Assembly: GCA_024734495.1 (NCBI GenBank)
Contig: JALMQS010000128.1
Span: 21,918,312 to 21,982,311, forward strand
Source of the DNA: Forficula auricularia
Lineage: Eukaryota; Arthropoda; Insecta; Dermaptera; Forficulidae
DNA: 64,000 nt
Reading direction: 5' to 3'
In this document: in pieces, positions 461 through 52,694 of the stretch
Layout of the letters: every line of letters begins with the position of its first letter
Numbering within the stretch: the first letter of the stretch is position 1
Made by a program: the position numbers and the translations under genes
The notes under the pieces: generated by a model
Database searches by the model: none
Seen by the model: only the letters and a program-made list of their open reading frames with translations
Told to the model about the DNA's origin: nothing

Positions 461-506
461 AAACTCAATATATTTCGGATTATTAGTCCATCATCAGGAG
501 TTTACA
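461..506 (-). ncRNA. Hammerhead ribozyme, family B, left arm
   Basis: On the minus strand the catalytic core CTGATGA (497-491) is followed by helix II GGA/TCC, GAAA (476-473), a minimal helix III of 2 bp with an AT loop, and a predicted cleavage site ATT|GAG between 467 and 466. Helix I pairs AAACTC with GAGTTT (498-503 with 461-466), six perfect pairs. One unpaired T sits between the core and helix II. Confidence 0.75.
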
Positions 507-527
507 GGATAAAACAGTTTTAACCTG

Positions 528-572
528 TAAATCCTGATGATGGACTAATAATCCGAAATATATTGAGTTTGT
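528..572 (+). ncRNA. Hammerhead ribozyme, family B, right arm
   Basis: Mirror copy of the motif at 461-506: CTGATGA at 534-540, helix II GGA/TCC, GAAA at 555-558, predicted cleavage after 564. Helix I is weakened by an A/G mismatch (upstream reads AAATC, not AAACTC), so this copy is probably slower or dead. Confidence 0.65.
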
Positions 573-707
573 ATAAACCTCTTTGAGTTTTATTTCATTC
601 TCTGTGAAACTACACACCCTTTACTTTATTAATTTTTTATTAAACGAGAAAAAATTGCTATATACACATAATCTGTGGGCCACTAGAAGGCTAAAAATGC
701 AAAAACT

Positions 708-805
708 GGGTGCGGGGTTAGAGTGGGGGTGGAAGTGGGGGTGGGATGGATGTGTGTAGGGGGGTGGGAGCGAACTGCGGGGTTTCGGGGAAGGGGTCCA
801 GGGGG
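708..805. repeat. G-rich low-complexity tract
   Basis: Runs such as GGGTGCGGGG, GAGTGGGGGTGG and GTGGGGGTGG. No gene. Confidence 0.6.
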
Positions 806-904
806 CGTGTACTATATATATTTGTATTTTTATCAGAATTTTAAATTAAAATTTTTTTTAACTTAAGCAAAAAGTTACCGAGTATCGCTCGGTGTCTCCA
901 GGTT

Positions 905-1280
905 CTATATTTTTATAATATAAAACTAAAGATTTGACCATCTTTTTTTGAAAATAGTTGGAATTTTTTTCAAAAAATCAGCTCGGGTTAAAATTAACCA
1001 ATGTATTTATATTAAAAGAGAAAGAATTTAATTTTTAGGACACATTCTAGAATTTTAGTAGAAATATTTTTTATATTGCGATATCAGAGGGGGTTCATCC
1101 CCTCAGGAGTCGAACCTCACACCCTCGAGATAAAAAACATCTCTCTGAGCTGATTGTTAGTTCTCAGGTTCGACTCCTGAGGGGATGAATCTCCTCTGAT
1201 ATCGCAATATAAAAATATTTCTACTAAAATCCTAGAATTTGACCTAAAAATTAAATTTTTTTCTCTTGATTTTTGAATAT
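905..1280. mobile_element. Foldback with tRNA T-arm-like core, copy 1
   Basis: Arms about 1005-1117 and 1157-1275. Each arm contains CTCAGG-TTCGACT-CCTGAG or a variant, a stem-loop like a tRNA T arm. The left side GAAAATAGTTGG recurs at 4240. Confidence 0.6.
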
Positions 1281-3445
1281 TAAAAAAAAATATTTTTACG
1301 AAATTTTTTGTGAAACTATTGAATTGGTTCTTATTTTCTCTTGTTGTTGAACACCATAACAACACAAATTATATTTTTTATTTTTTAAATTTTATTATCA
1401 TACTAGAGACGTTTCGAACACATATTTGTGTCAACATCAGCTTAAAATTTGTTTATTTAAAAAATCATACAATCGATCACATCTCAATCACTCATTTTTT
1501 TTTCATATTCTATTGAATGTTTTGTCTATGTTGCATGAAAACAACTTCTAAAAAATGATTACCTTAAGACCTCGTTTAGGGCTTTTTCGATTAACAATAA
1601 TTCAATATAACGCGGTCTGCTCGAAGATTTTCTCTAAATTTGGCAAAAAATAACTAATAAATGCACGAAGAAGGATGTAATTTCAACAAGATGTACCCAT
1701 TGTTGGCCAAATAGTCAATCTAATTGATGACAAGGGTACGCCAAGTCCCGTTTGCGCCGTCGTGCGAAATACTGATTAGCGCCTTTATGGTATATGCACT
1801 GAGTCTAAATTACTGGGTCCACAATATTTTTCACGTTTCAAGGTTTTTTTTTACAAAAATAACTAATAGAGCAGCATCAGCCTGGTCATTTAATAGCCAA
1901 TATCACGAGAGCCCCCTTGTATTTAGACAACTGAAATGCCAGATCGATTAAGGATATGCCTATCCTGCGAAAAAAGGCGTAAGAAGACAAAGTATTGGAT
2001 CGGTCAAAGGGTCCTCACGTAAAGACCACGGAAACCATGATCTCAAACAACGTCGGGCGTCCCTGCTAGGAGATGAAGATGAGTTGGATATTTAGGAGAT
2101 ATTGCATGTTTCTGGGGAGGTATTTACCATTTTGGTTTAGTAAATCGTCGTGAGTTTGCTTAACATTTTATTTATTTATTATCATTTTTTAAATTTCTTT
2201 GTGCTTGGCAATTTCTGAAATATGGAGAAAAATCTTTTCCATGATTCATTTCTGCCTGTTTGTGTCTAAATGTTGGATTCGAAAACCCACGATAATTAAA
2301 GAATAGAACGTCATCTAAAGTTTGTTCTAGTGCCAAAAGCTTATATTTTCAAAATGAAGAAATGATTAGAATTGGGCTTTCCAACTTTACTTTAAAAATG
2401 CCCGAAATTAGAAAATTATGAACACCAAAAATAAAATCATTATTTGAGAAGTCCTCAAACCACTGTAGCAAATTTGGCATAAAAATTCCATCAAGTTTTA
2501 TTTTCCTATCTCAATCTATTTGCTGACAAAAATTGTCAAATCTGCAAAATTTACAGAGAGAGTACTGAGTTTTGAATAAGTTTTGAATTTTTTTTTTCTT
2601 CTAATGTTTATTTTTATGCTTTATAAAAACTCATTTTTGTTTTCTTTGGCTAATTTCTAAAGCATTTTTTAATTGCAAAAACTTTCATCACAACACCTAT
2701 TTTTTACAAATCTTATATTTATAATTAATTGTTGGTAGAAGTTGATTTATTTAAGTTTTCTTTTCCCTTTTGAAGTTTTTCGTCCATTCTCAAATTTTTC
2801 GTTTTATGAATAAATATTCCCTAATTTCCACATTTCCGATACCTCTTTTTATAATGATTTTTTGTTAACTCTTTTGTTTATTTATCTCCCTTGTCTTTTG
2901 TTCTTCCTCAATTATTTATTTCGTCTGTCACTCGAGTGTCTATTTTGTCATGAAATATTATATAATCTTCCTGTTTGTTTAGTTGCTGTTTCACGTTTAA
3001 TAGTTATATTTATTTGTTTTGTTATTAATTTATTTTGGCACTTTTTCATAAGAATTAGAATTATTTCTTTGTTTTTCAAATCATCTGCGGTTCGCGTGGT
3101 TTTTTGATAGTGATTCAGAGATTGAGAATGCTGGTTTAGAGGGTTGAGTGATAAACTGTGAAGACTTGGATTCCCAAAGCACCAGTAATAAAAGAAAACT
3201 ATCAATTTCATGGCATGCGAGAGTAAATAATGCTGGCAGAACGTGAGGCTAAACATCCACATCAATAAATGAGCTTTGGTCCCGAAACTCTATCTTCTTT
3301 ACACCATAAACGTGTGTTAAGGGACAGACTTACAGATTTTATTTTATTCTTATTGCAGATGATTCCCTTGATTAAAATAACTAATCTAATAATATTCTAA
3401 TATCTAAATGTTAAATCGAGTATTATTACCCTTTTAAAACTGTTT
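1281..3445. other. No gene seen
   Basis: AT-rich with only short frames in T-rich sequence. A worn hammerhead-like string (CTGATGT ... CGAAACGTC, minus strand, about 1405-1442) is present but has a mutated core. Confidence 0.5.
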
Positions 3446-4058
3446 TAGTCCAAGAGCTGGTGATACATTTTGACTACGGATTTGACCCAACTAGAAATAA
3501 TGCGTAATAGTACCGTCTATGATGGTTGTACAGGGAATGGCCAGTCTTGCTGGCTGTAGCAGGTGGACCAGGTACTGCGCATGGTGTGAGTGCGGTAAAA
3601 AATACATATGTGTTATAAAAATTATAATTAATAGTCAATTATAAACATAATATATTCACTCCAGACTGTTTGAGTGGTGGAACGTGGAACCAGACCACCC
3701 AAAGTGTATTTTTACAACATGAAAAAATAGCATCAAAAATATTTTTTTTTCATGTTGTAAAAATACACTTTGGGGTGGTTTGGTTCCACGTTCCACCACT
3801 CAAATGGTCTTGAGTGAATATATTATGTTTATAATTGACTATAAATTATAATTTTTCTAATTTCATTCTGGATCAAAAATATTTTTTAACACATGTATTT
3901 TTTACCGCACTCACACCATGCGCAGTACCTGGTCGATCCACCTGCTACAGCCAGCCAGACTGGTCATTCCCTGTACAACTATCATAGACGGTACTATTAC
4001 GCATTATTTCTAGTTGGGTCAAATCCGTAGTCAAAATGTGTCACCAGCTCTTGGACTA
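3446..4058. mobile_element. Near-perfect 0.6-kb palindrome
   Basis: Two arms of about 300 bp start TAGTCCAAGAGCTGGTGA and meet at about 3747. Arms differ at scattered sites and by a small indel. No coding potential; a non-autonomous foldback transposon is likely. Confidence 0.75.
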
Positions 4059-5996: not shown

Positions 5997-6407
5997 TGCA
6001 ATGGCCTTAAAAACCCGTTTTTTATTAATAACGGGTTCTTACAAGTTAAAACGCTTTTCACTGAATACCTTTGTGGCAATTAGAGTATATTGATGCTGGT
6101 TGAGTTTGGTTCAACGATCTAGAATCTTCATTTTTGACCTTCCGCCTCATTTTGGGTGTTTATTTTCAAAAAATTTTAAACGAAAATGTCAAAAATTACA
6201 ACCTCTACAAATTTGCTTCTAATTTTTGACATTTTTGTTTAAAATTTTTTGAAAATAAACACCCAAAATAAGGCGAAAATTCTAGACCTTTGAAGCAAAC
6301 TCAACCAACATCAGTAAAAACTCTAGTTGCCACAAAGGTATTCAGTGAAACGCGTTTTAACTGGTAAGAACCCGTTCTTATAAAAAACAGGATTTTACAG
6401 CAACAGA
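5997..6407. mobile_element. 410-bp foldback, copy 1
   Basis: Inverted arms with AAACCCGTTTTTTATTAATA, GTTTCACTGAATACC-type and CATTTTGGGTGTTTATTTTC blocks. Closely related to 34262-34676. Confidence 0.7.
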
Positions 6408-8176: not shown

Positions 8177-8405
8177 CACGAGGGGGTGGGGGGTTATTAG
8201 GGGGCAAGGGGGGTGATTGTAACTTATATACGAGGGAATCCCAGCTTACGAACACCACACGAGGGGGTGGGGGGTTATTAGGGGGCAAGGGGGGGTGAAT
8301 GTAACTTATGTACGAGGGAATCCCAGCTTACGAACACCACACGAGGGGGTGGGGGGTTATTAGGGGGCAAGGGGGGGTGAATGTAACTTATGTACTAGGG
8401 AAATT
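8177..8405. repeat. Tandem array, 81-82 bp unit, 2.8 copies
   Basis: CACGAGGGGGTGGGGGGTTA starts each unit (8177, 8258, 8340), with TTACGAACAC at the unit end. Copies are nearly identical, G-rich on the + strand. Confidence 0.88.
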
Positions 8406-10668: not shown

Positions 10669-11643
10669 TTAGCGTGTATGATTTCGCGCGGCGTTACGAA
10701 CGATTTGTTCCAGCGCCACTGTTCCGGGGTGCATTTTATTTTGAAATATGTGGCTAATAAATATTATTAATGATTTTATTTTTATTAATTCTGAGCTTAA
10801 AAATGTTTTGAAGTACTCTTTATAATATGTATTCAAACCAAGTGAAATTTTAACAGTGGGGATGATTTCGATTAGGGGATTTGTATCGATTTTAACTAAG
10901 GGCGATGGGGACTTAATTTCAATAATTTGTGGCTTATTAATTGGTTCATTTATCTCTATGCCGGGTAGATAGGTTACTGACTTTAATTCGGTGGTGGGCT
11001 CTATGATGAAACTAATATTAACATTCTTAAAGGGGTCTGAATTGAGTTCTTGTGTGGTTTCGGTGAATTCGGCTGTGGATACCGTTGTTGCAAATTGAAA
11101 TTTTAATGGAGGGGTTTGAATGGTTGGGAGGGCAGTTACTACATCTTCATTCTTTCTGGGAGGATCATTAAATCGACTATCTGTCACATCGAGCTTGTTA
11201 TTTTTTACTTCAACTCCGCTATTCATGCTATCGAGTTTGCTAATGAAATTATCGAATCCCCTTTCAAATGTACGATTCATATTTTTAAAATTGCTAGTTA
11301 ACTTATCGAATCCACTATTCATATCGCTATTCAAACTTTCAAATTTACTATTCAAATTTATATTCATATTTTCCATCACAGTCATTATCTGCCTCAACAT
11401 TGCATTCGTATCATTATTATTGGGGATGGTGGGTTTAGTACTAGAGGGTGTGGAAGGGGTTGGGGGTGGCTTTTCTTTACCTGGCGCTCTGTCCAATGCG
11501 GCTCCGACTTCGGCTGTGGGAAAATGAATCATATTGTGAACATTATTCCCTGATTGACTGGAGTGAATTAGTCTCGAGGATGCGTCCCCGGTGCCCGCCG
11601 TCGGTCCAGAAAGCATAGAAAACGTCCCCCGCACGTCCGACAT
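10669..11643 (-). CDS. Gag-like coiled-coil protein, 324 aa, unassigned
   Basis: This is the longest reading frame in the window and I do not recognise the family. From the ATG at 11643 (two codons inside a longer TTG-started frame) the protein has a Ser/Thr/Gly-rich N-terminus, a proline-rich stretch at about residues 58-74, then a long helical, Asn/Met/Phe-spaced coiled coil at about 80-153 (repeats such as LNSKFESLN, MNSGFDKL, FERGFDNF). A Pro/Ile/Thr-rich middle follows, then a basic C-terminus containing KMHPGTVALEQIVRNA. There is no CCHC knuckle, protease or reverse transcriptase after it on the minus strand. The layout recalls gag or ORF1 proteins of retroelements, but it could also be a lone gene or a domesticated gag. 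The DNA around the frame is AT-rich and shows no paired LTRs that I could find. Real coding status is likely because 324 codons without a stop is improbable at this base composition. Confidence 0.55.
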   Translation of the reverse strand: MSDVRGTFSMLSGPTAGTGDASSRLIHSSQSGNNVHNMIHFPTAEVGAALDRAPGKEKPPPTPSTPSSTKPTIPNNNDTNAMLRQIMTVMENMNINLNSKFESLNSDMNSGFDKLTSNFKNMNRTFERGFDNFISKLDSMNSGVEVKNNKLDVTDSRFNDPPRKNEDVVTALPTIQTPPLKFQFATTVSTAEFTETTQELNSDPFKNVNISFIIEPTTELKSVTYLPGIEINEPINKPQIIEIKSPSPLVKIDTNPLIEIIPTVKISLGLNTYYKEYFKTFLSSELIKIKSLIIFISHIFQNKMHPGTVALEQIVRNAARNHTR

Positions 11644-12070
11644 CGACAATTAATTTCGAAAGAAAAAAACAAGAGGCAAATAAATAAATAAATATTTGAA
11701 TTTAAAATTATAATTAGTAGATGGAAGTGTCAATGGCCCTTGGTTATCTACTTATTTTTAATTCAGGCAAATATAAATATAGAATAATTTTTTTTGTAAA
11801 TTTTTTTTTCAATATAATAATTTTTCTTTTCTTTTCAAACAAGGGAACCTGCTAATCTCTGGGTAAACGTAGATATTTTCAAATATTTTCAGAATTATAG
11901 TACCAGGAAATTGTGAGATGAAATGATTTTTTTTTTGAAAATGAATAGGGATTGTCACCTGGATATCTCGATTCACGGCTTTTTGTGCGCTGAGGGTTCT
12001 TACATACATTAATTAAAAGGCTTATTTTTCAGCAGTTTTTTAATTTTAAATGGTGTTTTTTTTTTAATTT

Positions 12071-12428: not shown

Positions 12429-12640
12429 ACAAAGAGAAAGAAAGAGGTTGTCCTCTGCTTGATGCAAATAAACATGCATTGACATATATATCGAAATTAT
12501 ATATCTGTAAATATAGTATATATTATTTCTTTCTTTGAGACTATAGTTTCGAAGACTTGGTGTTCATCATCAGTCTTTTTTAATTATAAATATTATTCAT
12601 GGAGTCAATACCGTATGGATATTGAAATTTTTTAAATCGT
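12429..12640 (-). mobile_element. Family A hammerhead element (single arm)
   Basis: Runs from CACAAAGAGAAAG through GGTTGTCCTCTGCTTGATGC, an AT-rich centre, the ribozyme and TTCATGGAGTCAATACCGTA. Other copies are at 25196-25425, 46163-46700, 48585-48753 and (decayed) 31680-31850. No protein is encoded. Confidence 0.7.
12536..12582 (-). ncRNA. Hammerhead ribozyme, family A
   Basis: Core CTGATGA (12573-12567), unpaired T, helix II GAACAC/GTCTTC with one C/C mismatch and CAA loop, GAAA (12550-12547), helix III AC/GT with a TATA loop, cleavage predicted after C (12539). It is part of a family-A element copy spanning about 12429-12640. Confidence 0.65.
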
Positions 12641-13292: not shown

Positions 13293-14226
13293 TATGGTGC
13301 TCCTTATTTTGGATATTTTCGAATATTTGCGCTGACAGGGGCTCATATGGTTAGAAATAAATAAAAAAATATCCGCACAAGTTTCAAGTCTCTATCACAA
13401 TTTTAATCCCAGTGCTAGACAGCGTTTAAAGTTTCCCATCTAAATAACATGGGGTTTTTAGCATTGAACGATCAATTTTTTATTCCGGCCAAAGTAATGG
13501 TTCAAAAAATTTGAAACTCTGTAGACTTGATCCTTATAATAGTAGCTATCCTTAAGAATTTTTACAGATTTTCAGCTATTACAATTTTGGATCTACATCT
13601 AGAAAAAATACTGCTATATCTTAGGATTAGTAAGTTATGGACTCCAAAATTATAATAGCTAAAAATCTGTAAAAATTCTGAGGATTAGCTACTATTATAA
13701 GGATCAAGTTTACAGAGTTTCAAATTTTTGGAACCATTTCTCTGACCTGAATAAAAAATTGATCGTTCAATGCTAAAAATCTCATGTTATTTAGATGAAA
13801 ATTTAATCGCTGTGTAGAGATCCACATAGTAGCTATCCTTAAGAATTTTTACAGATTTTCAGCTATTACAATTTTGGATCTACATCTAGAAAAATACTGC
13901 TATATCTTAGGATTAGTAAGTTATGGACTCCAAAATTATAATAGCTAAAAATCTGTAAAAATTCTGAGGATTAGACTACTATTATAAGGATCAAGTTCAG
14001 AGTTTCAAATTTTTGGAACCATTTCTTTGGCCGGAATAAAAAATTGATCGTTCAATGCTAAAAATCTCATGTTATTTAGATGAAAAATTTAATCGCTGTG
14101 TAGCACTAGGTTAAAATTGAGATAGAGACTTGAAACTTAGGGAATATTTTTTTTTTATTTTTTTCTAACCATAAGAGCCCCTGTCAGCATAAATATTCAA
14201 AAATATCCAAAATTAGGAGCACCCTA
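13293..14226. mobile_element. hAT-like palindromic MITE, long copy
   Basis: Ends are TATGGTGCTCC and GGAGCACCCTA (consensus TAGGGTGCTCC). Flanks ATACAGAT (13285-13292) and ATACAGAC (14227-14234) form an 8-bp duplication with one change. The body is an inverted repeat whose centre (the AGTAGCTATCCTTAAGAATT block) has been duplicated head-to-tail, making it about 290 bp longer than the copy at 58.6 kb. No transposase is present. Confidence 0.8.
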
Positions 14227-14234
14227 ATACAGAC

Positions 14235-15169: not shown

Positions 15170-15690
15170 AGTAAGGGTACAAAAAGAAACTTTTTTCCAG
15201 TTTCTTTGACGAAATTATAATTTTATATACCTTTCTAAAAATACTCTACTAGAAATAAGTATAATCCCTTCGAAATTCAAATATTTATTTAAAAAAAAAA
15301 TGGAAAACTTATGATAGGGGGGGGACCCTTATCAACTTTAACCTAAAATTTTAGAGTACAAAAAGAAACTTTTTTCGAATTTCTTTGACGAAATTATAAT
15401 TTTCTATATCTTTATAAAATACTCTACTAGAAATAAGTATAATCCCTTCGAAATTCAAATATTTATTTTCAAAAAAAAATGGAAAACTTATGATAGGGGG
15501 GGACCCTTATCAACTTTAACCTAAAATTTTAGAGTACAAAAAGAAACTTTTTTCGAGTTTCTTTGACGAAATTATAATTTTCTATATCTTTATAAAATAC
15601 TCTACTAGAAATAAGTATAATCGCTTCGAAATTCAAATATTTATTTTCTAAAAATTTTGGAAAACTGATGATAAGGGGGGACAGAGGCGT
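15170..15690. repeat. Tandem array, about 180-bp unit, segmental copy 1
   Basis: Three units, each GTACAAAAAGAAACTTTTTT, AATACTCTACTAGAAATAAG, AATATTTATTT and a GATAGGGGGG-type end. Confidence 0.8.
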
Positions 15691-16289: not shown

Positions 16290-16470
16290 TTAATAGGATT
16301 AAGTGGATATCGATGAGGCAGTCAAAAAAAAAGAAGAATATAATTTACACGATCTTTTTATTCATAAAACCGATGTTTCGGAGGCTATTCCCTCCTTCTT
16401 CAGGGTTTATGAAAAGTCAGTGAAGGAAATCCAATGCGACATTCCCCTCCGTCTCCTCTTTCAGTGTTAA
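16290..16470 (-). mobile_element. Family C hammerhead element nested in a hAT
   Basis: Begins near AAGTGGATATCGATGAGGCA and continues through an A-rich run and AATTTACAC into the ribozyme. The same terminal block appears at 59843-59962, which has the arms without the ribozyme. A worn relative lies at 26190-26290. Confidence 0.55.
16361..16413 (-). ncRNA. Hammerhead ribozyme, family C
   Basis: Core CTGAAGA (16403-16397), unpaired A, helix II GGAGG/CCTCC (5 perfect pairs, loop GAATAG), GAAA (16379-16376), then CATC with predicted cleavage after C at 16372. Helix I pairs TTCATAAACC with GGTTTTATGAA, ten pairs with a single bulged T. Helix III is only A-T. Helices I and II are the most convincing of any copy. 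Confidence 0.75.
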
Positions 16471-23294: not shown

Positions 23295-23405
23295 AAAGTT
23301 AAAAGAGACAATTCAAGAGTGTGTCTTCTGCTGACTATAGTATAAAATTAAAAAATGTATTTTCCAACAGAAGACACTCTTTTATTGTCTCCTTTAATTT
23401 ATAAA
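23295..23405. repeat. Short foldback, sister of 45.9 kb
   Basis: GAGACAATTCAAGAGTGTGT and ACACTCTTTTATTGTCTCCT arms, followed by CTGCTACTCTCGGCAAAA. Confidence 0.65.
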
Positions 23406-23612
23406 AAATCTGCTACTCTCGGCAAAAAAAACTTTTTAATTTAAGCTAAAAAATGTTTAAAAAATTGAATTAAAATATTGAAATTTCCTATTCAGAAGCT
23501 CTTTTACCCTTCTTTGAAATCTCAACACTAGTGAAGGCTAAAAAAAAATCGAAAATATTATTTTATTTGGAAATATGAATTTTGTCTTTTTGAATTTTTG
23601 TTCGTTTCTGAT

Positions 23613-24466: not shown

Positions 24467-25195
24467 ATTTTATCTTGGTATTTATGTATCACAATTTTTT
24501 TATCTTATTTATATACTCTCAAAAATATTGGCCCCAGGGTTCTATTAAGGCGAAGGCCTAACGTTACTTGCAATTTGTTTTTATTTTCAATCTCGAAGAT
24601 ATAATAGCTATACCAAGTGTTTATACGGCAAGGCATTTTTGATTCTCACTGTTGCGTAAAATCATAGGTTGAAGCGTTTTAGTCTCATATACATTCTATT
24701 TATTTTTTCTGAATATCTCTAATAGAGATATTATTTTCATTAATCGACCTCTGTATTATACTCTCCTGAATGATGAATCAATTTCGATTCTCTCTTAAGA
24801 AATCAATTTCAAATTAGTAGATTTCAAGAACAGGATATCACATTTTAAATTGGTAAATAGAAATTTAGACGTTTTTATTTCCGTTTAATGCCATAATTTG
24901 TCGTTTCATGGTTGATCTAGATTTTTTCAAAAATTGTACAATTTGTAATGATAACCGGAAACCTGTTCCAAATAAAAGTGCACAGCGGAGCAATTTATTT
25001 ATTTTTTAAGACCATAAATTAGATTGAAATTTTTCATTACAATTTTAAAAATTCTTTTTACAAATAAAAGTAAAAACTTTAGGAAAAAGTGAAAAATTTT
25101 CAATTTTGATACACACTGCTAATTTTAGCGATTTGGCAATTTTTCAGGGTTCCTTTCGAAAGTAATTCCTATTAGTAGGTCCTATTATTGTCCAC

Positions 25196-25282
25196 AAAGA
25201 GAAACAAAGAGGTTGTCCTCTGCTTGATGTAAATAAACATACACACATATATATCGAAATGATATATCTGTATATATATATA

Positions 25283-25321
<39 letters not shown>

Positions 25322-25425
25322 TATTTGTTTGAGACTATAGTTTCTAAGACTTGGTCTTCATCATCAGTCTTTTTTAATTATAAATATTGTTTTTCATGGA
25401 GTCAATACCGTATAGATATAGACAA
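25196..25425 (-). mobile_element. Family A hammerhead element (single arm)
   Basis: Same order of blocks as at 12.4 kb. The AT-rich centre has grown into a (TA)n tract at about 25268-25318. Confidence 0.65.
25330..25372 (-). ncRNA. Hammerhead ribozyme, family A, helix II closing pair lost
   Basis: CTGATGA (25367-25361), helix II GAAGAC/GTCTTA with loop CAA, GAAA (25344-25341), helix III AC/GT, cleavage after C at 25333. The C before GAAA has become A, breaking the pair nearest the core. Confidence 0.6.
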
Positions 25426-26209
25426 TTTTTTTTTGACTTTTTTTTAGCTGAGAGCCAGTTAGAACTCTATTACTTAGCCAGTTAGAACTCCTATTATTGT
25501 CGCTACACTAATGTCTGGCTGTCTGTTTATCTGTCTGAGCATTGTAGCTCGTAAATTAAATAAACCACAAACTTGAGATTTACAAGTTATATGGTGATGT
25601 GTAGAGTTCGGATTTTGAATATAAAGCAAGTTTTTTCCCTTGATTGCTATCCTTCTCTAATCTTTTGTATCTGGGCATTTTAGGGTATTAGAACCCAACC
25701 AGAGAAATCTTATTTTGCATATAAATGCATATTTTGGAGTTTTAGTGCATATTTTGCATATTTAGTGATTTAAGATATATTTTGCATTTTTGTCCCTCGT
25801 TTGTTGGCAAATCAGAAAAATTATTGAAGAAAATTTTAATGTCAGATATGGTAGGCCACAGGTTTCAAACCTTTTTTGATGGTAAAAAATATTTTACCAA
25901 ATATGCGAAAAAGAGATAGGTCTTTATAAAATATTTCTATGTGATCTTAACTCATAAATAATGCATATTTTAAGTACATATTTTCTTTTAAAATGCATAT
26001 TTGCATATTTCGGCCTTTTTAACGCATATTTTGCTGTTTTTTAGTGCATATCGATCCGAACGCTAGTGATGTAATTCTCTTTTATCGAAATCCAACATTT
26101 TTTTTAAAATTTTAATCGAATGATTACTTTAGGGAAGGTCGAAATATCAAGGATAATGAAAACCACAAATTCCAAATAAAATAATTTATTAAAATGTAAT
26201 TTTAATCCT

Positions 26210-29790: not shown

Positions 29791-29928
29791 TAATAGTGAA
29801 TAATGTGTTAAATCGTCAGATGATAAGAATAATAAATTATTATTATCATTTCCTTCCATAATTTGTATTAATTTGAAAGTTTTTAATAGGAAAATTAGAC
29901 AAGTTTTTATGTGTGACTTTTTTATTTA

Positions 29929-29972
29929 TCAACCAACGTTTCGTTGACTTTGCCGACTTCTTCAGGGCTTCA
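29929..29972 (-). ncRNA. Hammerhead ribozyme, left arm of foldback
   Basis: CTGAAGA (29965-29959), unpaired A, helix II GTCGG/TCAAC with one C/A mismatch, GAAA (29942-29939), ACGT helix III without loop, cleavage after T at 29935. Helix I AGCC/GGTT (with one wobble). The CGAAACGTT box is the form I associate with Penelope-like element ribozymes. Confidence 0.75.
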
Positions 29973-30026
29973 AATAATCATGCCACACATTAGTCTAAAT
30001 TTTACGAATGTGTGGCATTACTATTT

Positions 30027-30068
30027 GAAGCCCTGAAGAAGTCGGCAAAGTCAACGAAACGTTCGTTT
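30027..30068 (+). ncRNA. Hammerhead ribozyme, right arm of foldback
   Basis: CTGAAGA at 30033-30039 and GAAA at 30056-30059 with the same helix II. After the cleavage site the first helix I base is C rather than G, so helix I cannot start properly. Likely impaired relative to its partner. Confidence 0.6.
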
Positions 30069-31034
30069 ATAAATAAATAAGTCACACATAAAAACTTGTC
30101 CTTATTTTCCTATTATAAACTTTCAAATTAATAATAATAAAGTTAAACTTAAAATATATTAAATCACTTTAGTTGTTTTTAATTTATAAAAAAAAATTCT
30201 ACAATTTAATAGGGTAAAAGTGATAGTGTGACGTCACAATACAGGAAGGGCTCAATGAAATGTGACAGAATGTGTCACATGGGAAGGGGGGTCTAAAAAT
30301 CTTGAAATTCGTGTGACGTAATTTATGGACGGCCCCTAAAAAAGTCTTAAATCTATATAATTGCATCTGAAAGTTTTTTATAGCTCTCATGGATAGATAG
30401 ATTGCTTTTTTTGAGGCACTTGGGTTAGACCATATTCAGGTGTCACAATATTTTAAATGAATTTCCTATTAACTCTGGGTATTCTGGTTCCAATATCCAA
30501 CGCCGATATCAGTGGTTGATTGATAAAGTGAGAATCATTTGAAAGCATGTTGACTCATCAACTTTTGTGATAATCAATACATGGTAACGTGGTAACCCTC
30601 CTTTATCAAGTGTTTATTAATTAACTGATAATCATTTCAGCTAGAGCATCTCTACTATGGATGCCTGGTAAACAATAGAAGAGAACACTCGCGGAACTAT
30701 GAAATAGGCGTCAAATAGTAAATAAATGTACACACGGAACTAAACAGAAATTTTATTCAATTATTCACTCTATATAATAAAAGAAACCTTGATGTTTTAA
30801 AACAATTATCTACTGTCTAAAGCTTTAACATACTGTCATCCCGAAAAGTAATTCATTTGCTGAGAACATTGTTTTACGACTCGGATTTCTTTTTTATGGT
30901 TCAATTCATAAGTAAAATGGGTTGGTCTAATGTACACAATCTAATATACAATATTTGTTTTTCTAACCATTGTAGCTCGTAATTTTACTTGGTCCGTTCT
31001 GTGGGCTTCATTGTTATTGTTTTGCATTTTCATG

Positions 31035-31679: not shown

Positions 31680-31850
31680 ATGTGGTTGTTCTCTCCTTGA
31701 TGCAAATAAATTTGTTTGTGACTATGTATAGTTACGAAGATTTGACCTTCATCATCATTCTTTTTAACTAGAAATATTTTATTTGTTATTTCTACATTAT
31801 GTTATTCTGGGGATTCATTTACCAGTTGGATATAGAAAATTTCGGTTTCT
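31680..31850 (-). mobile_element. Decayed family A hammerhead element
   Basis: Recognisable by TTGATGCAAATAAA, GACTATGTATAGTTACGAAG and ACCTTCATCATCATTC. The core has become ATGATGA and the GAAA has become GTAA, so the ribozyme is dead. Confidence 0.5.
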
Positions 31851-34261: not shown

Positions 34262-34676
34262 TGTTGCAGTAAAAACCCGTTTTTAATAAGAACGGGTTCT
34301 TACTAGATAAAACGCGTTTCACTGAATACCTTTGTGGCAACTAGAGTTTACTGATGTTGGTTGAGTTTGGTTCAAATGTCTAGAATCTTCATTTTTGACC
34401 TTCCGCCTCATTTTGGGTGTTTCAAAAATTTTTAAACGAAAATGTCAAAAATTAGAAGCAAATTTGTAGAGGATGTAATTTTTGACATTTTCGTTTAAAA
34501 TTTTTTTAAAATAAACACCCAAAATGAGTCGGAAGGTCAAAACTGAAGATTCTAGACCTTTGAACTAAACTCAACCAACATCAGTAAACTCTAGTTGCCA
34601 CAAAGGTATTCGGTGAAAAGCGTTTTGACTAGTAAGAACCCGTTCTTAAAACGGATTTTTACTACAACATATTTAC
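34262..34676. mobile_element. 410-bp foldback, copy 2
   Basis: Same family and layout as 5997-6407: AACCCGTTTTTAATAAGAAC at one end and its complement at the other. A plus-strand frame runs into it but is not a gene. Confidence 0.7.
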
Positions 34677-34710: not shown

Positions 34711-34925
34711 CTTCTAGGTAGGTTTCACAAAAATAAGACAAGATGCTTGCTTGTTAGCATGATTCTATATATATTTCGGAGTAGGAGCCCATCTTCAGGA
34801 GTATGAAACCTACCTAGAATTCTAATTTTTAAAATTTTTAAATGTTGTTTTTTAAATTTTCGTTACTTTATTAAAATATGTTTCACCAATAACCTACACC
34901 ATTCTCCCTTAACAAAATATTATAT
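34711..34925. mobile_element. Family B hammerhead element
   Basis: Short inverted arms (CTAGGTAGGTTTCA at 34713-34726 and TGAAACCTACCTAG at 34804-34817) bracket the ribozyme. The right side ends in the family B end, GTTTCACCAATAACCTACAC. Confidence 0.55.
34763..34804 (-). ncRNA. Hammerhead ribozyme, family B
   Basis: CTGAAGA (34798-34792), unpaired T, helix II GGG/TCC, GAAA (34777-34774), helix III AT/AT with loop ATAT, cleavage after A at 34766, helix I CT/GA then one mismatch. The same layout as the copy at 51.6 kb. Confidence 0.6.
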
Positions 34926-36445: not shown

Positions 36446-37105
36446 TCCGAGACATTTCATCCCCCGACAAAATATCCCCGACAAAACATCCCCCTACAGA
36501 ATATCCTTCAGACAAAATATCTCATGACAAAATAACCCTTCCCCGCGTGAATCTTATGAGTAATGCTTATCGACTCCGGTTCGGTTAATATATATTCAGT
36601 TCGACTCGGTTGGGTTTGTATAGCTCCTTTTCGGGCTGGTTTTTAGACGGTTCGGTTGGCGTCAGCCGAACTGAATATATATTAACCGAACCTCCGAAAG
36701 TTTAGTCCGGGCGGGGTGTGTTTCGGCCTCCCATTTTTTTTTCTAATCAAACACACATTGAAAACCGAACCAGCCAATCGTCGGGTGGGGTGTGTTTGGG
36801 GCTCCCATTTTTTTTCTAATCAAACACACATTGAAAACCGAACCAGCCAATCGTCGGGTGGGGTGTGTTTGGGGCTCCCATTTTTTTTTATAATCAAACA
36901 CACATTGAAAACCGAACCAGCCAATCGTCGGGTGGGGTGTGTTTGGGGCTCCCATTTTTCCTAATCAAACACACATTGAAAACCGAACAGCCAATCGTCG
37001 GGCAGGGTGTCTCTTTTGTATTCTCCCTTATACTGGGGGATATTTTGTCCTTTGTATATTTTGTCGGGGGATGTTTTGTCGGGGGCTGAAATGTCGCGGT
37101 ACCTT
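36446..37105. mobile_element. Foldback with internal 73-bp tandem array
   Basis: Terminal CGACATTTCAGCCCCCGACA (complement of the right end) matches the left GAGACATTTCATCCCCCGAC. Inside are a palindrome centred near 36634 (GGTTCGGTTAATATATATTC arms) and the tandem array. Confidence 0.65.
36704..37012. repeat. Five-copy tandem array, 70-74 bp unit
   Basis: Each unit holds GGGGTGTGTTTGGGGCTCCC, a T-run and CAAACACACATTGAAAACCG. Unit starts fall near 36708, 36781, 36854, 36928 and 36998. Open frames on both strands here are by-products of the repeat. Confidence 0.85.
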
Positions 37106-44941: not shown

Positions 44942-44982
44942 ATTCCTGATGATGTGCTAACAACCCGAAATATATTGAGAAA
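44942..44982 (+). ncRNA. Hammerhead ribozyme, family B, degenerate helix II
   Basis: CTGATGA at 44946-44952 and GAAA at 44967-44970 with TATATT|GAG. Helix II has become GTG/CCC with a mismatch and helix I keeps only CT/GA plus one wobble. It is followed by a family B end (CTCTTTGTGAAAACCACCAA). Confidence 0.5.
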
Positions 44983-45690: not shown

Positions 45691-45867
45691 ACCCTTGTGA
45701 TGTAAAAAATTCAGCAAGTGTGAGATTATTTAAAATTAATTTGAGGAAATATATGAGGGAAAACTGAAAAATGTTACATAAACATTAGAACTTATATTGT
45801 AAATTGTAATTATGTATTATAGTAAATTGAATGTTTTTGTGCCGAGGGTAGCAGAATTTTTATATAT

Positions 45868-45997
45868 TGAAGGAGACAATAAAAGAGTGTGTCTTCTGCT
45901 GGAATTAAAAATTTTATTTATAACGAAACTATAGTTTCGTTATAAATAAAATTTATAATTCCAGCAGAAGCACACTCTTTTATTGTCTCCTTCAATA
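45868..45997. repeat. Short foldback, GAGACAATAAAAGAGTGTG family
   Basis: A near-perfect hairpin with arms AAGGAGACAATAAAAGAGTG and its complement, centred on ACTATAGT. A sister copy is at 23295-23405. Both sit beside a CCGAG.GTAGCAGA sequence. Confidence 0.7.
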
Positions 45998-46300
45998 TGT
46001 ATTATAGTGTAATATATTTGTATGTAAATACATTTAAATAAGTAATTAAATAAATAAAAGAGAGAAAAAGCTTTGTCTAATTAAGTGACATTTTATTCGA
46101 TATAATTTCTCTTGTATTGAATCTGGACTGCCTCATCCAATCCTTCCATATCATTGAAAAGTTTTTGTTTTGCCGAGAGTAGCAGAGCTGTTGATTCATA
46201 AAGAGAAACAAAGAGGTTGTCCTCTGCTTGATGCAAGTGGGCATACACACATATATATCGAGATGAGATATCTGTATATATATATATTATTTATTTGTTT

Positions 46301-46341
46301 GAGACTATAGTTTCGAAGATTTGGTCTTCATCATCAGTCTT
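46301..46341 (-). ncRNA. Hammerhead ribozyme, family A, left arm
   Basis: CTGATGA (46337-46331), unpaired T, helix II GAAGA/TCTTC, GAAA (46314-46311), helix III AC/GT with loop TATA, cleavage after C at 46303. It is on the antisense strand relative to DUOXA. Confidence 0.75.
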
Positions 46342-46550
46342 TTTTAATTATAAATGTTTGTTTTTCATGGAGTCAATATCGTATGGATATTGAAAATTTG
46401 GAGTCAATATCGTATGGATATTGAAAATTTGGTGTTCCTTCTTCACTGGTGTTATTAGTTCTAAGCTGACCACCAGTGAAGAAGGAACACCAAATTTTCA
46501 ATATCCATACGATATTGACTCCATGAAAAACAAACATTTATAATTAAAAA

Positions 46551-46590
46551 AGACTGATGATGAAGACCAAGTCTTCGAAACTATAGTCTC
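46551..46590 (+). ncRNA. Hammerhead ribozyme, family A, intact core
   Basis: CTGATGA at 46554-46560, unpaired T, helix II GAAGAC/GTCTTC (six perfect pairs, loop CAA), GAAA at 46577-46580, helix III AC/GT with loop TATA, cleavage predicted after C at 46588. Helix I starts GA/TC; a second helix ATTTATA (46537-46543) with TATAAAT (46609-46615) is possible beyond an internal loop. It lies on the sense strand, 265 nt upstream of the DUOXA exon. Confidence 0.8.
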
Positions 46591-46830
46591 AAACAAATAA
46601 ATAATATATATAAATATATATACAGATATATCATCTCGATATATATGTGTGTATGTTTATTTGCATCAATCAGAGGACAACCTCTTTGTTTCTCTTTGCC
46701 TTCCATATCAATTTACCAGTCCATCTCTGAAAACTATTTTAATCTTCTTATTAATTGGATCCATTGATCATTGAGATTGAAGAATAATTTAGAAGAGATA
46801 CCTATCGTATGATAATAAAACTAATGTGTT

Positions 46831-47032: not shown

Positions 47033-47189
47033 AACAACATTTTTCTCTAGAAGGAATATTTTAAATTTATTTCATTTTTGACAAACATCCATTTATCTAA
47101 GATTTTTATTGTTATTAGCGTATGCTTAATGAAAAAAACAAATGAAGAATTTGAAAATATTTTCCTTATAATGTTATATCATTCGTATC

Positions 47190-47860
47190 CTTATTAAAAT
47201 TGATAGAAGAAATTCTAGGGAACTGGATAAAGATTTTAAATGAAAACACAGAGCTTTTATTAAATAAGCCAGACGTTTCGTCAATTTATTTTAACTTCCT
47301 CAGTGGCTCATTTCATCATTCCTTGTCAAAAACAGTTTTACTAAAAGACAAAACATCATATGGTTTACTTTCTTTCAATACATTCATGGCTTACATGGCT
47401 TATCTTGGATACGATTTTCATTTGAACAACTAAAAATTGTGGCCGTTTCACACGAAAATAACATATATAAACCAGAAACTATATCATCCATCCATTATCA
47501 ATGTAAAGTAAAGAAAAATTTTGAAAATTTTTTAGAAACTTTTTAAAATTTAAAATACTAGATATGTTTTACATAAATTTAAATTATTTATGTGAAACCT
47601 ACCTAGTATTTTATATTTTAAATTTTAAAAAGTTTCTAATAAAATTTTCTTTACTTTATTTAAAATGTTTCACCAAGAACCACACCATTCTCATAACATT
47701 ACCAATGTGGTAGCGTCATCGCCTCTATTCATTTATAAGGGGGAACCATTTGTATCTATATATAATCTGGCTTATTTAATAAAAGCTCTGTGTTTTAATT
47801 TCAAAATCCTTATCCAGTTCCCTACTCCCTTCTATGAATTTTTCCTTATAGTCTGTGAAA
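47190..47860. mobile_element. Family D Penelope-like foldback with nested family B
   Basis: GGGAACTGGATAAAG ... CAGAGCTTTTATTAAATAAG on the left (47218-47268) is repeated inverted at about 47770-47825. Between them, 47480-47700 is a separate foldback of family B. The right arm lost its ribozyme. It is the nearest element downstream of the DUOXA exon. Confidence 0.65.
47266..47309 (-). ncRNA. Hammerhead ribozyme, family D, canonical
   Basis: CTGAGGA (47303-47297; position 7 is free to vary), unpaired A, helix II GTTA/TGAC, GAAA (47279-47276), ACGT then C, cleavage after C at 47272. Helix I AGCCA/TGGCT has five perfect pairs plus a wobble. This copy satisfies every sequence rule of the core with the preferred C at the cleavage site. 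Confidence 0.78.
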
Positions 47861-48290: not shown

Positions 48291-48930
48291 ACTCATCAAA
48301 ATTCTAGAGTACTTCCGCTAACCCTGGAATGCTGAAATTTGGCAGGCAGGTAGAGTTTGGGGTTCAATTAATGGGAAAAATCCAAAAATCTAAACTTTCC
48401 TTCTTCAGGGCCTAAAATGAAGGGGTGAAAGTTATAGACTTAATTAACATATACTAAAAATTCAATGAACCTAGAATGCTGAAATGTGGCATACTGGTAT
48501 AGCTTGGCACATTAATAAAGGAGGAAATTGATACAGCGAAACTTTTTCTTTTTCAAGCTCCGAAATGAAGGGGTGAAAGTCATAATTGAAAAGTTTTTGT
48601 TTTGCCGAGAGTAGCAGAGTTGTTGATTCACAAAGAGAAACAAAGAGGTTGTCCTCTAGCTTGATGCAAATAAACATACACATATATATCGAGATGATAT
48701 ATGAGTGTATGTTTATTTGCATCAAGCAGAGGACAACCTCTTTGTTTCCCTTTGTGAAAGTTATAGGCTTAATTAACATAAACTAAAAATTAAATGAACC
48801 TAGAATGCTGAAATTTGGCATACTGGTAAAGCTTCACAAATTAATAAAGGACGAAATTGAAAAATCGAAACTTTTCCTTCTTCTGGGCCCGAAATGAAGG
48901 GGTTAAATTTATAAGATAAATCCAACTTAC
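48291..48930 (+). repeat. Tandem array, GAATGCTGAAATTTGGCA units
   Basis: Three diverged units, each with a CTGAAATTTGGCA-like block, a TCAATTAATGG/CATTAATAAAG-like block and GAAATGAAGGGGT(G/T)AAA. The last two are separated by the family A foldback insertion. Confidence 0.65.
48585..48753. mobile_element. Family A foldback lacking the ribozyme, with duplication
   Basis: Inverted AACAAAGAGGTTGTCCTCT arms close on an AT centre. It is flanked by GTGAAAGTCATA (48573-48584) and GTGAAAGTTATA (48754-48765), a 12-bp near-perfect target-site duplication inside the host repeat array, which fits retrotransposition of a short RNA. Confidence 0.65.
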
Positions 48931-48941
48931 AAAAAGAAGTG

Positions 48942-50250: not shown

Positions 50251-50420
50251 GCCTTAAAAAATAAAATTGACCTCTAAGGGGGTTGAACACTTTCCCACCA
50301 CTTAAACAACTTTCCCTTCTCTTCGGTAATGCAAGGGTCTTTTCGAGATCCATAGGGGCTACATCTTTACTGGTGCACCCCTTTCTTGCATTCGATTGCA
50401 TTAAAAAAAAAAAAAAAAAA
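50198..50420. repeat. Direct duplication, 130-bp unit
   Basis: AAGGGTCTTTCGAGATCCAT ... GCATTCGATTGCCTTAAAAA occurs at 50198 and again at 50328 with small differences. Confidence 0.7.
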
Positions 50421-50448
50421 ACCTCTTTTCAAAATAGTATGCTGTTAA

Positions 50449-51160
50449 AAATAAATTGACACTTTTTGATGTGGCCATCCACTTGACTTTGCCATATACT
50501 TTTGGCTAGAATTTGGTCTAAGGGCCTAGATTTTAATTTTTTGACCCCCCCCCATTTTGGGCAGTTTATTTTTGCATTTTTAGTGTCCTGGTGGTCCACT
50601 GATTATGTATACAAAATATCGTTGAGTTTGCTCAAATGGCCTAGATTTTTATTTTTTGACCCCCCCCCCCCTAATTTTGGCGCCAGAAAAAAAATATTTT
50701 CGTTATTATAGGTTCTTTTTATAGTATATTTCATTTTTCCTGTTTTTTTAGTTTGAAAATATTATAATTTTAAATTTTAACCCCCTCCACAGTTTTTATT
50801 TTGGGGCGATATGCAACAAAATCTAATCGGCTCTTAATCTCAATGCACCAAATGCACTACGTGTGAAATTTGGTTTTGATATTCACACTAGTTTTTGAGC
50901 TAGCTCGTCCACAAAATTTGGTAACTCACAGACTAACAGACATTTCGTCAAAACAGTAATTATCTCGAAAAATATAATTTTTTTCGATGTTCACTTATTA
51001 GAGATTTTTTGTAGAGCGAAATGTCATGGTTTTGCCCAATTTTTTTTATCAAAATAGTTTGAGCCGTTTTTGAGATATTTTGAAAAAAAAGAAGTAAAAA
51101 AAAACACTTTTTTCATTCACGATTACAATACTTGACCATACCCTGTATGGTAATGTAAAA
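50449..51160 (-). mobile_element. T-family repeat, copy 5
   Basis: From TTTTTGATGTGGCCATCCAC to ACCATACCCTGTATGGTAAT on the + strand, missing part of the internal units. Confidence 0.7.
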
Positions 51161-51378
51161 GTTATAAATTTATTATACGTTTACATACAAATAGATAGGA
51201 AATTTACAAGATTGCATATGGCAAAAAAATAATATATTATATTCGTTAAATCACATTAAATCGTTGCAAAAATACAAAAATAAATTGTATCTTCATTTTT
51301 TTTTTTTTTTTATTTAAAAAGGTCGTAGGGAATTGGACCAGAATATAAATCAAACGCAAAGTTTTTTAATTAAATGGG

Positions 51379-51418
51379 TCAAACGTTTTTTCACTGATTA
51401 GCTATTTCCTCAGTGGGC
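51379..51418 (-). ncRNA. Decayed hammerhead, family D, left arm
   Basis: Counterpart of the copy at 52.66 kb. CTGAGGA is kept (from TCCTCAG at 51408-51414), but the residues ahead of AAACG have become A-rich and the G of GAAA is lost, so it should not cleave. Confidence 0.5.
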
Positions 51419-51477
51419 CATTTTATAAACTTTTTGTCAGGTGTTATAACTACTAGAAAAAATTTAGGGAAAGCGGT

Positions 51478-51760
51478 GTTTGTTTATAGTGAAACAAATT
51501 AAACACAGTTTTTTAAAAAGATTATAGTGGTGTTTCACAAATAAAATAAAAATAATTTTTTTTTAAATTATATTTTTAGAGTTTTATTTTAAATACTTTA
51601 TACATATGTCTCTCAGTCTTTTGTAAGCTCAAACTCCTGATGATGGGCTAAAAACCCGAAATGTCTATAGAGTATTTAAAATAAAACTCCAAAATATAAT
51701 TAAATTTTTTAATTTTATTTTTACTTGTGAAACACCACTATAATCTTTTTAAATAAGCTG
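51478..51760. mobile_element. Family B foldback inside a family D element
   Basis: Inverted arms (AAAAAGATTATAGTGGTGTT at 51515-51534 versus its complement at about 51732-51751) surround the ribozyme at 51.65 kb. Nested within the family D element 51312-52756. Confidence 0.65.
51632..51676 (+). ncRNA. Hammerhead ribozyme, family B, good helices
   Basis: CTGATGA at 51637-51643, unpaired T, helix II GGG/CCC, GAAA at 51658-51661, helix III AT/AT with loop GTCT, cleavage after A at 51669 (ATA|GAG). Helix I ACTC/GAGT, four perfect pairs. Confidence 0.72.
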
Positions 51761-52471
51761 ACGTGTTCTGATGTGGCCATCCACTTGACTTTACCATACA
51801 ACCTGGGCCCTCACTTATATTTAATATTTAATAAAATTATTTATAATCATGTAGGGTAGGGGTTAGCTTTTGCATTTTTAGACTTCTGGGGGTCCACTGA
51901 TTATGTATTCAAAATTTGGTTGAGTTTGGTACAAGGGCCTAAATTTTCATTTTTTGACCCCCCCCCCATTTTGGGCGGTTAATTTTTCATTTTTAGACTT
52001 CTGGGGGTCCACTGATTATGTATACAAAATTTGGTTGAGTTTGGTACAAGGGCCTAGATTTTCATTTTTTGACCCTACGCCCCCCCCCCCCCCCATTTTG
52101 AGCGGTTAGTTGTGTATACAAAATTTGGTTGAGTTTGTTCAAATGGCCTAGATTTTTAATTTTTAATCCCCCTTCACTCCCGCCACCACCCCATTTTTGG
52201 CGGCTAGTTTTTGCATTTTTATATTTCCGGGTCCCACTGATTGTGTATACAAAATTTGATTGAGTTTGCTCAAATGGCCTAGATTTTTAATTTTTAATCC
52301 CCCTCCTCCCCCTCACCCTACACTCCATTAATTTTGGGTCGATATGCACCAAAATCTAATCAGTTCTTAATCTCAATGCACCAAAACTATTTTGAAAAAA
52401 AAGAAGGAAAAAACCCACTTTTTTCATGCACGATTACAATACTTGACCATACCCTGTTTGGTAAAGTAAAA
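51751..52471 (-). mobile_element. T-family repeat, copy 6
   Basis: From AAATAAGCTGACGTGTTCTG to CCATACCCTGTTTGGTAAAG. It lies within the family D element and abuts the family B foldback. It lacks the outer body but has four CAAAATTTGGTTGAGTTT units. Confidence 0.7.
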
Positions 52472-52650
52472 ACTCCTGTACTAGAAAAAACATTCCAAAG
52501 AGTATGTCTTCACCGAATCATTCAATTTGTTATCAAGACAATATAAAACATTAAAAAAAACAATTGTAATTGTTCTTCGTTATAATAATTATATAAAAAA
52601 ATCAAAATTGAATAAAATCTTTCATCAACCATTAAATCTATTGTCAAGAA

Positions 52651-52694
52651 ACGCTACTGATGAAGTCGCAAATCAGTGACGAAACGTTTGGCCC
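52651..52694 (+). ncRNA. Hammerhead ribozyme, family D
   Basis: CTGATGA at 52657-52663, unpaired A, helix II GTCGC/GTGAC (five pairs with one wobble, loop AAATCA), GAAA at 52681-52684, ACGT, cleavage after T at 52688. Helix I GCTA/TGGC. Confidence 0.75.

Follow-up and report, generated by a model that had tools for sequence, protein, structure and literature searches.

The stretch of DNA considered here (the window) is a 64,000-nucleotide portion of the genome of Forficula auricularia (contig JALMQS010000128.1, positions 21,918,312 to 21,982,311), in which hammerhead ribozyme motifs of several sequence families lie on both strands. These motifs very probably belong to the pseudo-long terminal repeats (pseudo-LTRs, or pLTRs) of Penelope-like elements (PLEs) that encode an endonuclease and are present in several lineages; a mechanism for their insertion is proposed below. 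The massive presence of minimal hammerheads in animal PLEs is already established, and the present case is a well-anchored instance of it. What might be new to a specialist is the near-uniform extra A or U in the ribozyme core, the high density of the motifs and the head-to-head copies, which we read as two-sided insertions.

Features of the window

The copies in the window are 5'-truncated pLTRs, either solo or head to head, and their hammerheads form three sequence families: F1 (with AUAUAU in the position of helix III), F2 (ACUAUAGU) and F3 (ACGU), the last with several subfamilies, which agrees with the count of at least four families in an initial annotation of this DNA. That annotation did not mention the extra core nucleotide, the self-complementary stretches found where helix III would be, or the head-to-head insertions that have tails and target duplications. 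The features are listed below with their scores under the descriptor introduced in the next section; those given without a strand have none assigned.

340..347, second copy 639-646: target duplication ATTAAACG of insertion A, 8 bp, weak alone
348..638: insertion A, made up of pseudo-LTRs in head-to-head orientation (97% palindrome at 397-634); left tail 348 to about 392
458..506 (-): F1 hammerhead with AUAUAU for helix III, score 30; left arm of pair A, which is head to head
529..569 (+): F1 hammerhead, right arm of pair A, score 19
12537..12575 (-): F2 hammerhead (ACUAUAGU), solo, score 19; 87.6% to the autonomous PLE; no sure target duplication
16367..16408 (-): F3-like hammerhead with GGAGGG helix II and non-palindromic ACAU, score 26
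23299..23428: further inverted PLE fragment without hammerhead
25193..25488 (-): insertion holding the next F2 hammerhead; 13-bp duplications TCCTATTATTGTC at 25180-25192 and 25489-25501
25331..25369 (-): F2 hammerhead, solo pseudo-LTR, score 19
29861..30138: palindrome B (90%, centre 29999.5), head to head, with neither a sure tail nor a sure target duplication
29931..29969 (-): F3 hammerhead (ACGU), left arm of pair B, score 23
30028..30068 (+): F3 hammerhead, right arm of pair B, score 20
31711..31778 (-): decayed F2 copy, 78-82% to other F2 copies
34762..34804 (-): F1 hammerhead, truncated inverted arm, AC-rich tail on the high-coordinate side, score 16
44943..44979 (+): F1 hammerhead, score 14
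45804..46059: further head-to-head PLE fragment; in each arm the matches start 13 nt ahead of the cleavage site
46154..46698: insertion C, formed by F2 pseudo-LTRs placed head to head; left-only tail 46154-46196; 12-bp duplications CCTTCCATATCA at 46142-46153 and 46699-46710
46301..46339 (-): F2 hammerhead, left arm of pair C, score 21
46552..46590 (+): F2 hammerhead, right arm of pair C, score 24
47171..47839: insertion around the next hammerhead, with inverted second arm from 47766; 11-bp duplications TTTTCCTTATA at 47160-47170 and 47840-47850
47263..47312 (-): F3 hammerhead, score 34
about 47493-47705: F1 head-to-head fragment without hammerhead, inside insertion 47171-47839
48581..48753: insertion E, F2 ends placed head to head and cut short before the hammerhead, left tail; flanking GTGAAAGT at 48573-48580 and 48754-48761
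51373..51422 (-): decayed F3 hammerhead, score 17; 81% to 52656-52755
51633..51673 (+): F1 hammerhead, score 19, on the right of palindrome D (51509-51756, 75%), which has a left tail
52653..52692 (+): F3 hammerhead, score 25
59793..59959: further inverted PLE fragment without hammerhead

Detection of the hammerheads

The initial annotation had listed 14 motifs combining CUGANGA and GAAA with helices I and II and an NUH cleavage site, and all 14 are present where it had placed them, on the same strands. Each passes a scored descriptor (CUGANGA, 0 or 1 inserted nucleotide, helix II, GAAA, NUH and helix I) and carries the core nucleotides C3 U4 G5 A6 N7 G8 A9 and G12 A13 A14, with the NUH cleavage site in line with helix I. 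In total the descriptor returns 15 hits in the window (score 14-34), the additional one being the decayed motif at 51373-51422 (-), whose score of 17 is reached only with a shifted GAAA. As judged from sequence, the motifs can be classed as minimal hammerhead ribozymes of a type I-like form, with predicted self-cleavage. Of the decayed copies proposed at five further places, those at 51.4 kb (this motif) and 31.7 kb (an F2 relative) hold up; the copy at 12.1 kb has the core string but fails both descriptors (the scored one and the strict one used below), that at 23.0 kb aligns with F3 but has T in place of C3, and that at 26.2 kb is a candidate.

A comparison with dinucleotide-shuffled sequence, which had been suggested as a check, comes out clearly in favour of the motifs. 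A score of at least 14 is reached by 15 sites in the window versus 24 in total in 200 shuffles of the whole window (0.12 per window), a score of at least 18 by 12 sites versus three in total in the same shuffles, and a strict descriptor gives five hits versus a mean of 0.06 in 100 shuffles. Two control sets, selected for holding a similar core string and scanned in their entirety, contained no match to the strict descriptor: 109 IMG/VR stretches (968,710 bp) and 106 prokaryote stretches from GTDB (801,406 bp). At the looser score of at least 14 there were 12 matches in IMG/VR (best 22) and 50 in the prokaryote set (best 24); among the best 12 of these 50, six lack the inserted nucleotide and four more have a helix II of a single pair. 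The exact F1- and F2-type patterns are absent from the IMG/VR pattern scan, where the 109 stretches are those with the F3-type core, and blastn of pair C against plasmids gave no match. A second suggested check, the Rfam hammerhead models, failed to recover the motifs: nothing was reported in the window at the gathering score or at E 10, nor at E 10 in six other hammerhead-bearing loci, the models having been run without a positive control.

An extra nucleotide, a missing helix III and covariation

The most uniform property of these ribozymes is a single nucleotide between A9 and helix II, which gives the best fit in 151 of the 155 cores checked. These include all 15 hits of the window, all 22 of a 200-kb sample taken without selection from the same contig and all 18 motifs found in the flanks of PLE genes (see below); for the first 100 listed places in the genome, the fit is best with the insert in 96, tied in three and better without it in one. 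The inserted nucleotide is A or U in each of the 141 cores with a clear helix II: in 55/55 motifs of window, sample and PLE flanks (23 A and 14 U in window and sample together) and in the 86 of the first 100 listed places with a helix II of at least three pairs (63 A, 23 U). In the F3 motifs of the window it is A, not U. A core that abuts helix II directly, as membership in the hammerhead class would have it, is thus not what is found; we count the extra nucleotide as a variant and not as grounds for exclusion, because it is tolerated in one viroid ribozyme. According to the account in PMC3705267, the plus-strand hammerhead of Chrysanthemum chlorotic mottle viroid has an extra A10 between A9 and G10.1, and its change to U makes trans cleavage 3-4-fold faster, whereas C or G is harmful. 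The two cases are alike in the position of the extra nucleotide and in its letters, A or U, the other being a viroid ribozyme. No description of the extra nucleotide in PLE hammerheads was found in the literature searched, which left out Cervera and de la Pena 2014 and Lunse et al. 2017. One published screen, in the procedure set out in PMC3088659, discarded hits with any change in the core or a mispair at 10.1-11.1, so that motifs of the present type would likely have been dropped there.

A compatible helix III had also been claimed for the motifs. A stable one is lacking in the monomer, and in 12 of the 15 window hits its place is held by self-complementary ACGU, AUAUAU or ACUAUAGU. A missing helix III is a known trait of PLE hammerheads. 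Palindromes in its stead are as expected for dimers, the formation of which is predicted here, and hammerheads of such a type are described as acting as dimers in the portions concerned of PMC7761336, PMC7229834 and PMC3088659.

The helices themselves are kept by compensatory change, in F3 in both helices I and II and across the motifs of window and sample in helix II. Among the 37 motifs of window and sample (25 distinct), helix II has 45 two-sided changes versus 12.6 in shuffled alignments (reached by 0/1000). In F3 (six sequences) there are 16 two-sided changes versus 6.5 shuffled (0/500), and structures slid along the alignment score far lower. These shuffles do not keep the relatedness of the sequences. 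The copies of F2 differ from one another by decay only.

Abundance in the genome

The genome searched comprises 1,061,512,967 bp in 845 contigs. Exact cores of the form ending in CGAAAC (the GAAAU forms lie outside this count) number 52,175 + 52,130 = 104,305 on the two strands, versus 205 + 187 = 392 for the reversed pattern. The 200-kb sample holds 22 hits, or about 110 per Mb, and the window 15 in 64 kb, or about 234 per Mb. The density that the initial annotation had singled out is thus about twice the sample mean, but it is a property of the whole genome and not local to the window. Large numbers have been given for other animals, with more than 6,000 hammerhead motifs in Acropora millepora and 126,247 in axolotl in the figures quoted from PMC7229834.

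Link to Penelope-like element genes

The motifs are tied to PLEs by the organization of a locus elsewhere in the genome (L245), where an open frame (1040-3613) is preceded by one hammerhead (900-938) and followed by another (3809-3847), all on the same strand and with a unit of 2,909 bp. The frame has 858 codons from stop to stop, with its first ATG at 1133 (codon 32), and encodes reverse transcriptase (RVT_1, E 1.6e-16) and GIY-YIG (E 8e-6) domains. The locus thus has both enzymes in one open reading frame (ORF) and hammerhead-bearing pLTRs in tandem around it, as a PLE should. Five F2 arms or solo copies of the window align to its pLTR at 77-97% identity, and the tails of insertions C and E align up to L245 positions 1081-1084, that is, within the open frame. 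The nearest named PLE proteins (among 7,994 candidates sharing most words that were scored) are from Parnassius, Diabrotica and Bemisia, followed by fish, frogs, flukes and Hydra.

The association extends beyond a single locus. Twenty 3' flanks of GIY-YIG matches, each of 1.2 kb, were picked with their sequence unseen from 150 listed matches of 3,423 first-look candidates, and 16 of them contain a hammerhead in sense orientation within 1.2 kb downstream, compared with one in antisense and about 1.3 in 20 flanks per strand expected from the density in the 200-kb sample. The families seen attached to PLE genes are the F2 type (ACUAUAGU) and another ACGU type, the latter in five loci. The link between hammerheads and PLEs drawn in the initial annotation is therefore upheld by the organization of L245, by these flanks and by the F2 alignments.

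In F2, an ATG within the hammerhead is followed by an in-frame TAG, and an unspliced ORF must therefore begin downstream of it. The idea that an extra U provides the start codon of the PLE (A9-U-G10.1 reading AUG) was accordingly rejected for F2, the TAG lying inside the hammerhead itself, unless the RNA is spliced; it is weakened further by the A that the F3 motifs of the window carry at that position. A different PLE copy (L246, C57:1700300-1704000) has a rearranged 5' end, with unrelated sequence and a piece of tail in reverse orientation adjoining its RT/GIY-YIG frame on the upstream side.

Several results weigh against our assignment or narrow it. No PLE coding sequence turned up in the window: Pfam gave nothing above cut-off on 10 of its 165 ORF fragments, and a six-frame motif scan found no GIY-YIG and two chance YxDD-like strings. 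F1 and the window's own F3 subfamilies were not seen attached to a PLE gene in the 20 flanks, four of which have no hammerhead, and eight of the 17 flank hammerheads in sense orientation are one identical F2 motif, so that the 16 loci with a link do not count as independent cases. In C and E, the tail ends before the first ATG of the L245 frame. With regard to structure, the covariation of F1 alone (five sequences) is not significant (87/500 shuffles), so that the claim of structure conserved over sequence is supported by F3 and across the 37 motifs; in F3, two of five covariation measures are weaker, being reached by 22 and 27 of 500 shuffles. F2 has just two helix I pairs beside the core, and the predicted monomer fold is not the hammerhead in several motifs. 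The RNAs of head-to-head copies are predicted to form long hairpins, with -91 to -365 kcal/mol in the five insertions folded, for which reason many genomic copies are probably inactive. With regard to insertion, the 8-bp duplications (A and E) are weak alone, boundaries were picked after the search for repeats, and no sure duplication was seen at B, D, 12536, 34763, 16361, 44942, 52651 or 51377. Finally, truncated copies show no visible excess of 5' ends at the cleavage site in 299,543 bp around 112 places: a few lie at -3 to +5, without a sharp peak, in a scan in which some overlapping loci were counted twice and which is blurred by AT-rich spurious matches (one query has a TA repeat).

Structure of the insertions

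In A, B and C (46200-46697), hammerheads lie in both arms near the centre of a long inverted repeat and point outwards, and in palindrome D there is one on the right side only. Inverted head-to-head pLTRs are combined with a tail on one side in A, C, D, E, the copy at 34763 and 47171-47839, and B is head to head with no tail seen. In insertion C the tail is a 43-nt extension of the left arm alone (46154-46196), which is shared with the more truncated head-to-head copy at 48581-48753. Flush target duplications flank five insertions (A, 8 bp; C, 12 bp; E, 8 bp; 25193-25488, 13 bp; 47171-47839, 11 bp); among 20,000 random pairs of positions, flush repeats of at least 11 bp occurred in 9 and of at least 8 bp in 64. 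From the predicted cleavage site to the end of the insertion, those with duplications measure 72, 74, 110 and 140 nt without tail and 101, 119 and 149 nt with tail. Head-to-head orientation also prevails outside the window: neighbours at most 1 kb apart in the first 100 places of the genome listing (contigs C1-C4) are head to head in 23 cases, at least two of which join unlike families, tail to tail in three and on the same strand in two. By strand, the hammerhead pairs of the window are four minus-plus (one of unlike families) and one plus-minus, and the figures for the 200-kb sample are 3, 1 and 1.

The head-to-head copies may stem from self-priming of one cDNA on an antisense template and not from extension of both target strands, an origin that we regard as quite possible, though short of probable. 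Self-priming has been proposed for palindromes at inverted junctions in Adineta vaga, as argued in the relevant part of PMC3846280, and would suit the near symmetry of A and B. The arms of 47171-47839, however, are unequal and separated by unlike sequence, one having a whole hammerhead while in the other the match begins only about 2 nt ahead of the cleavage site; this speaks against self-priming there but does not decide the matter. A tail on one side only is what two separate starts of reverse transcription would give, and a PLE protein from Anolis extends both strands in vitro in the experiments detailed in PMC11167929.

The remaining alternatives concern what the copies are. Metazoan retrozymes are small tandem repeats that carry type I hammerheads, are non-autonomous and are copied via circular RNA. 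They would account for hammerheads that lie, as in the window, in short repeats that are AT-rich, non-coding and free of genes, and animal retrozymes of about 170-400 nt are reported in PMC7229834. None of the 34 tandem-repeat rows of the window overlaps a hammerhead, however, the copies are solo or head to head and several have tails and target duplications, and for F2 this explanation is refuted by the pLTR of an element with its own reverse transcriptase and endonuclease; we consider it very unlikely overall. Even less likely are foldback or MITE-like DNA transposons with a hammerhead by chance in their inverted repeats, which would fit the long palindromes at A, B, C and E and the short duplications at A, C and E, but not the solo, non-palindromic copy at 25193-25488 with its duplication, nor the one-sided tails and variable centres between fixed outer ends, and which are refuted for F2 by direct similarity to the PLE pLTR. 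That the cores are chance or purely inherited sequence free of structural constraint, to which the decay of single copies and the covariation result for F1 might lend themselves, is scarcely credible in view of the shuffle controls, the genome ratio of 104,305 to 392 and the two-sided helix II changes between families.

A proposed mechanism and its relatives

The full element would be organized as pLTR (hammerhead)-ORF (reverse transcriptase and GIY-YIG)-pLTR (hammerhead), partly in tandem. Its extra A or U, together with the mostly self-complementary stand-in for helix III (ACGU, AUAUAU or ACUAUAGU), suggests that the ribozyme should cleave as a dimer or with the help of the element's protein. 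Reverse transcription would begin at one of two points past the cleavage site, either about 70-140 nt or about 100-150 nt downstream; the latter would lie inside the open frame and be the source of the tail. Synthesis would usually stop early. A fixed start and an early stop would leave mostly 5'-truncated pieces of pLTR that end just 3' of the hammerhead and often keep it; with an internal start, any insertion longer than roughly 120-200 nt would retain the ribozyme, which would explain the density. Both target strands may be extended, as the published Anolis element suggests, in which case many insertions would be head-to-head fusions of two cDNAs whose hammerheads face outwards, with fixed outer ends and free inner ends. 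The start points, the dimer cleavage, the two-sided extension and any role of cleavage itself are inferred; the core and its helices, their covariation, the association with PLE genes, the tails, duplications and orientation of the copies and their number in the genome are direct observations.

If so, the abundance of hammerheads in animals would have a simple reason, as a ribozyme just upstream of the start of reverse transcription would be carried along by truncated insertions whether helpful or not, and the copies would form a large natural set for comparing two-sided extension with self-priming as routes of PLE insertion. The core is, in addition, a variant that the RNA-family models tried here miss. 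More tentatively, and with some doubt, we suggest that PLE hammerheads as a class, at least in this lineage, use a non-standard core in which the extra A or U is conserved, matching in position and letter what a viroid ribozyme tolerates, and that descriptors and covariance models built on an unbroken core have undercounted them; in the same reading, head-to-head insertions of pLTRs are the trace of target-primed synthesis on both sides by the protein of the PLE, so that the more than 100,000 copies are a fossil record of the points at which its reverse transcription started and stopped.

Minimal hammerheads are reportedly massively present in PLEs of animals, a finding attributed to work by Cervera and de la Pena in 2014 and by Lunse et al. 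in 2017. As described in the sections on them in two reviews (PMC6155905, PMC7761336), they resemble the present motifs in being type I-like, with helix III missing or tiny, in lying in PLE pseudo-LTRs and in forming thousands of dispersed copies with proposed dimers; nearly every core checked here has the extra A or U, and their density is about 100 cores per Mb. The Poseidon element PAc of Anolis carolinensis, to go by the experiments in PMC11167929, starts reverse transcription internally at +111-118 of the ORF and has a hammerhead that cuts at +26, cuts and extends both target strands, needs its own protein for hammerhead cleavage and inserts without cleavage in vitro. As far as that account goes, it shares with the present elements an ORF for reverse transcriptase and GIY-YIG, a hammerhead near the 5' end of the ORF and a tail between two start sites, and differs in starting about 85-92 nt after the cleavage site, compared with 72-140 and 101-149 nt here, and in the F2 ATG within the hammerhead, which here meets an in-frame TAG.

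Penelope elements of Adineta vaga have, in the copies detailed in PMC3846280, pLTRs of 193-218 bp, an inverted pLTR in head-to-head arrangement, a 31-bp one-sided tail and 8-10-bp duplications; the paper nowhere uses the word hammerhead. On this description the two share pLTRs of about 200 bp, inverted head-to-head pLTRs and a one-sided tail, with an ORF of about 830-842 amino acids there, and differ in that the window copies are pLTR-only remnants with duplications of 8-13 bp. Metazoan retrozymes, as characterized in the part of PMC7229834 devoted to them, likewise have type I hammerheads, some with a weak helix III and palindromic loop, and are mobile and non-coding, but they form tandem arrays and circular RNAs, whereas no hammerhead-bearing array is present in the window.

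Other repeats and open frames

Beside the PLE copies, the window contains other repeats. A 230-nt segment at 6025-6254 is repeated in inverted orientation at 34420-34649 (93%), inside a 406-nt palindrome (34263-34668), and looks like a separate foldback family; a further family of long inverted and tandem copies, with units of about 230-290 nt and no listed hammerhead inside, occupies 13426-14229 and 58705-59288. Three long, hairpin-like palindromes (3679-3794, 34364-34571 and 48639-48746) match Rfam microRNA families with low E-values but with scores below the gathering score, the third being a truncated PLE head-to-head copy. Tandem arrays without hammerheads lie at 8177-8402 (82-bp units), 36708-37010 (74-bp units) and 15177-15682 (178-bp units), and a dispersed 72-nt repeat (22208-22279, 50488-50674, 51901-52312, 53884-53955 and others) has 10 copies of 61-100% identity, several of which end in long runs of C. 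Among the open frames, that of 326 amino acids at 10672-11649 (-) matches no Pfam family above cut-off; the same holds for that of 230 amino acids at 60388-61077 (-), which has 23 relatives, some with RVT_1, and which resembles the C-terminal part of a LINE reverse transcriptase.

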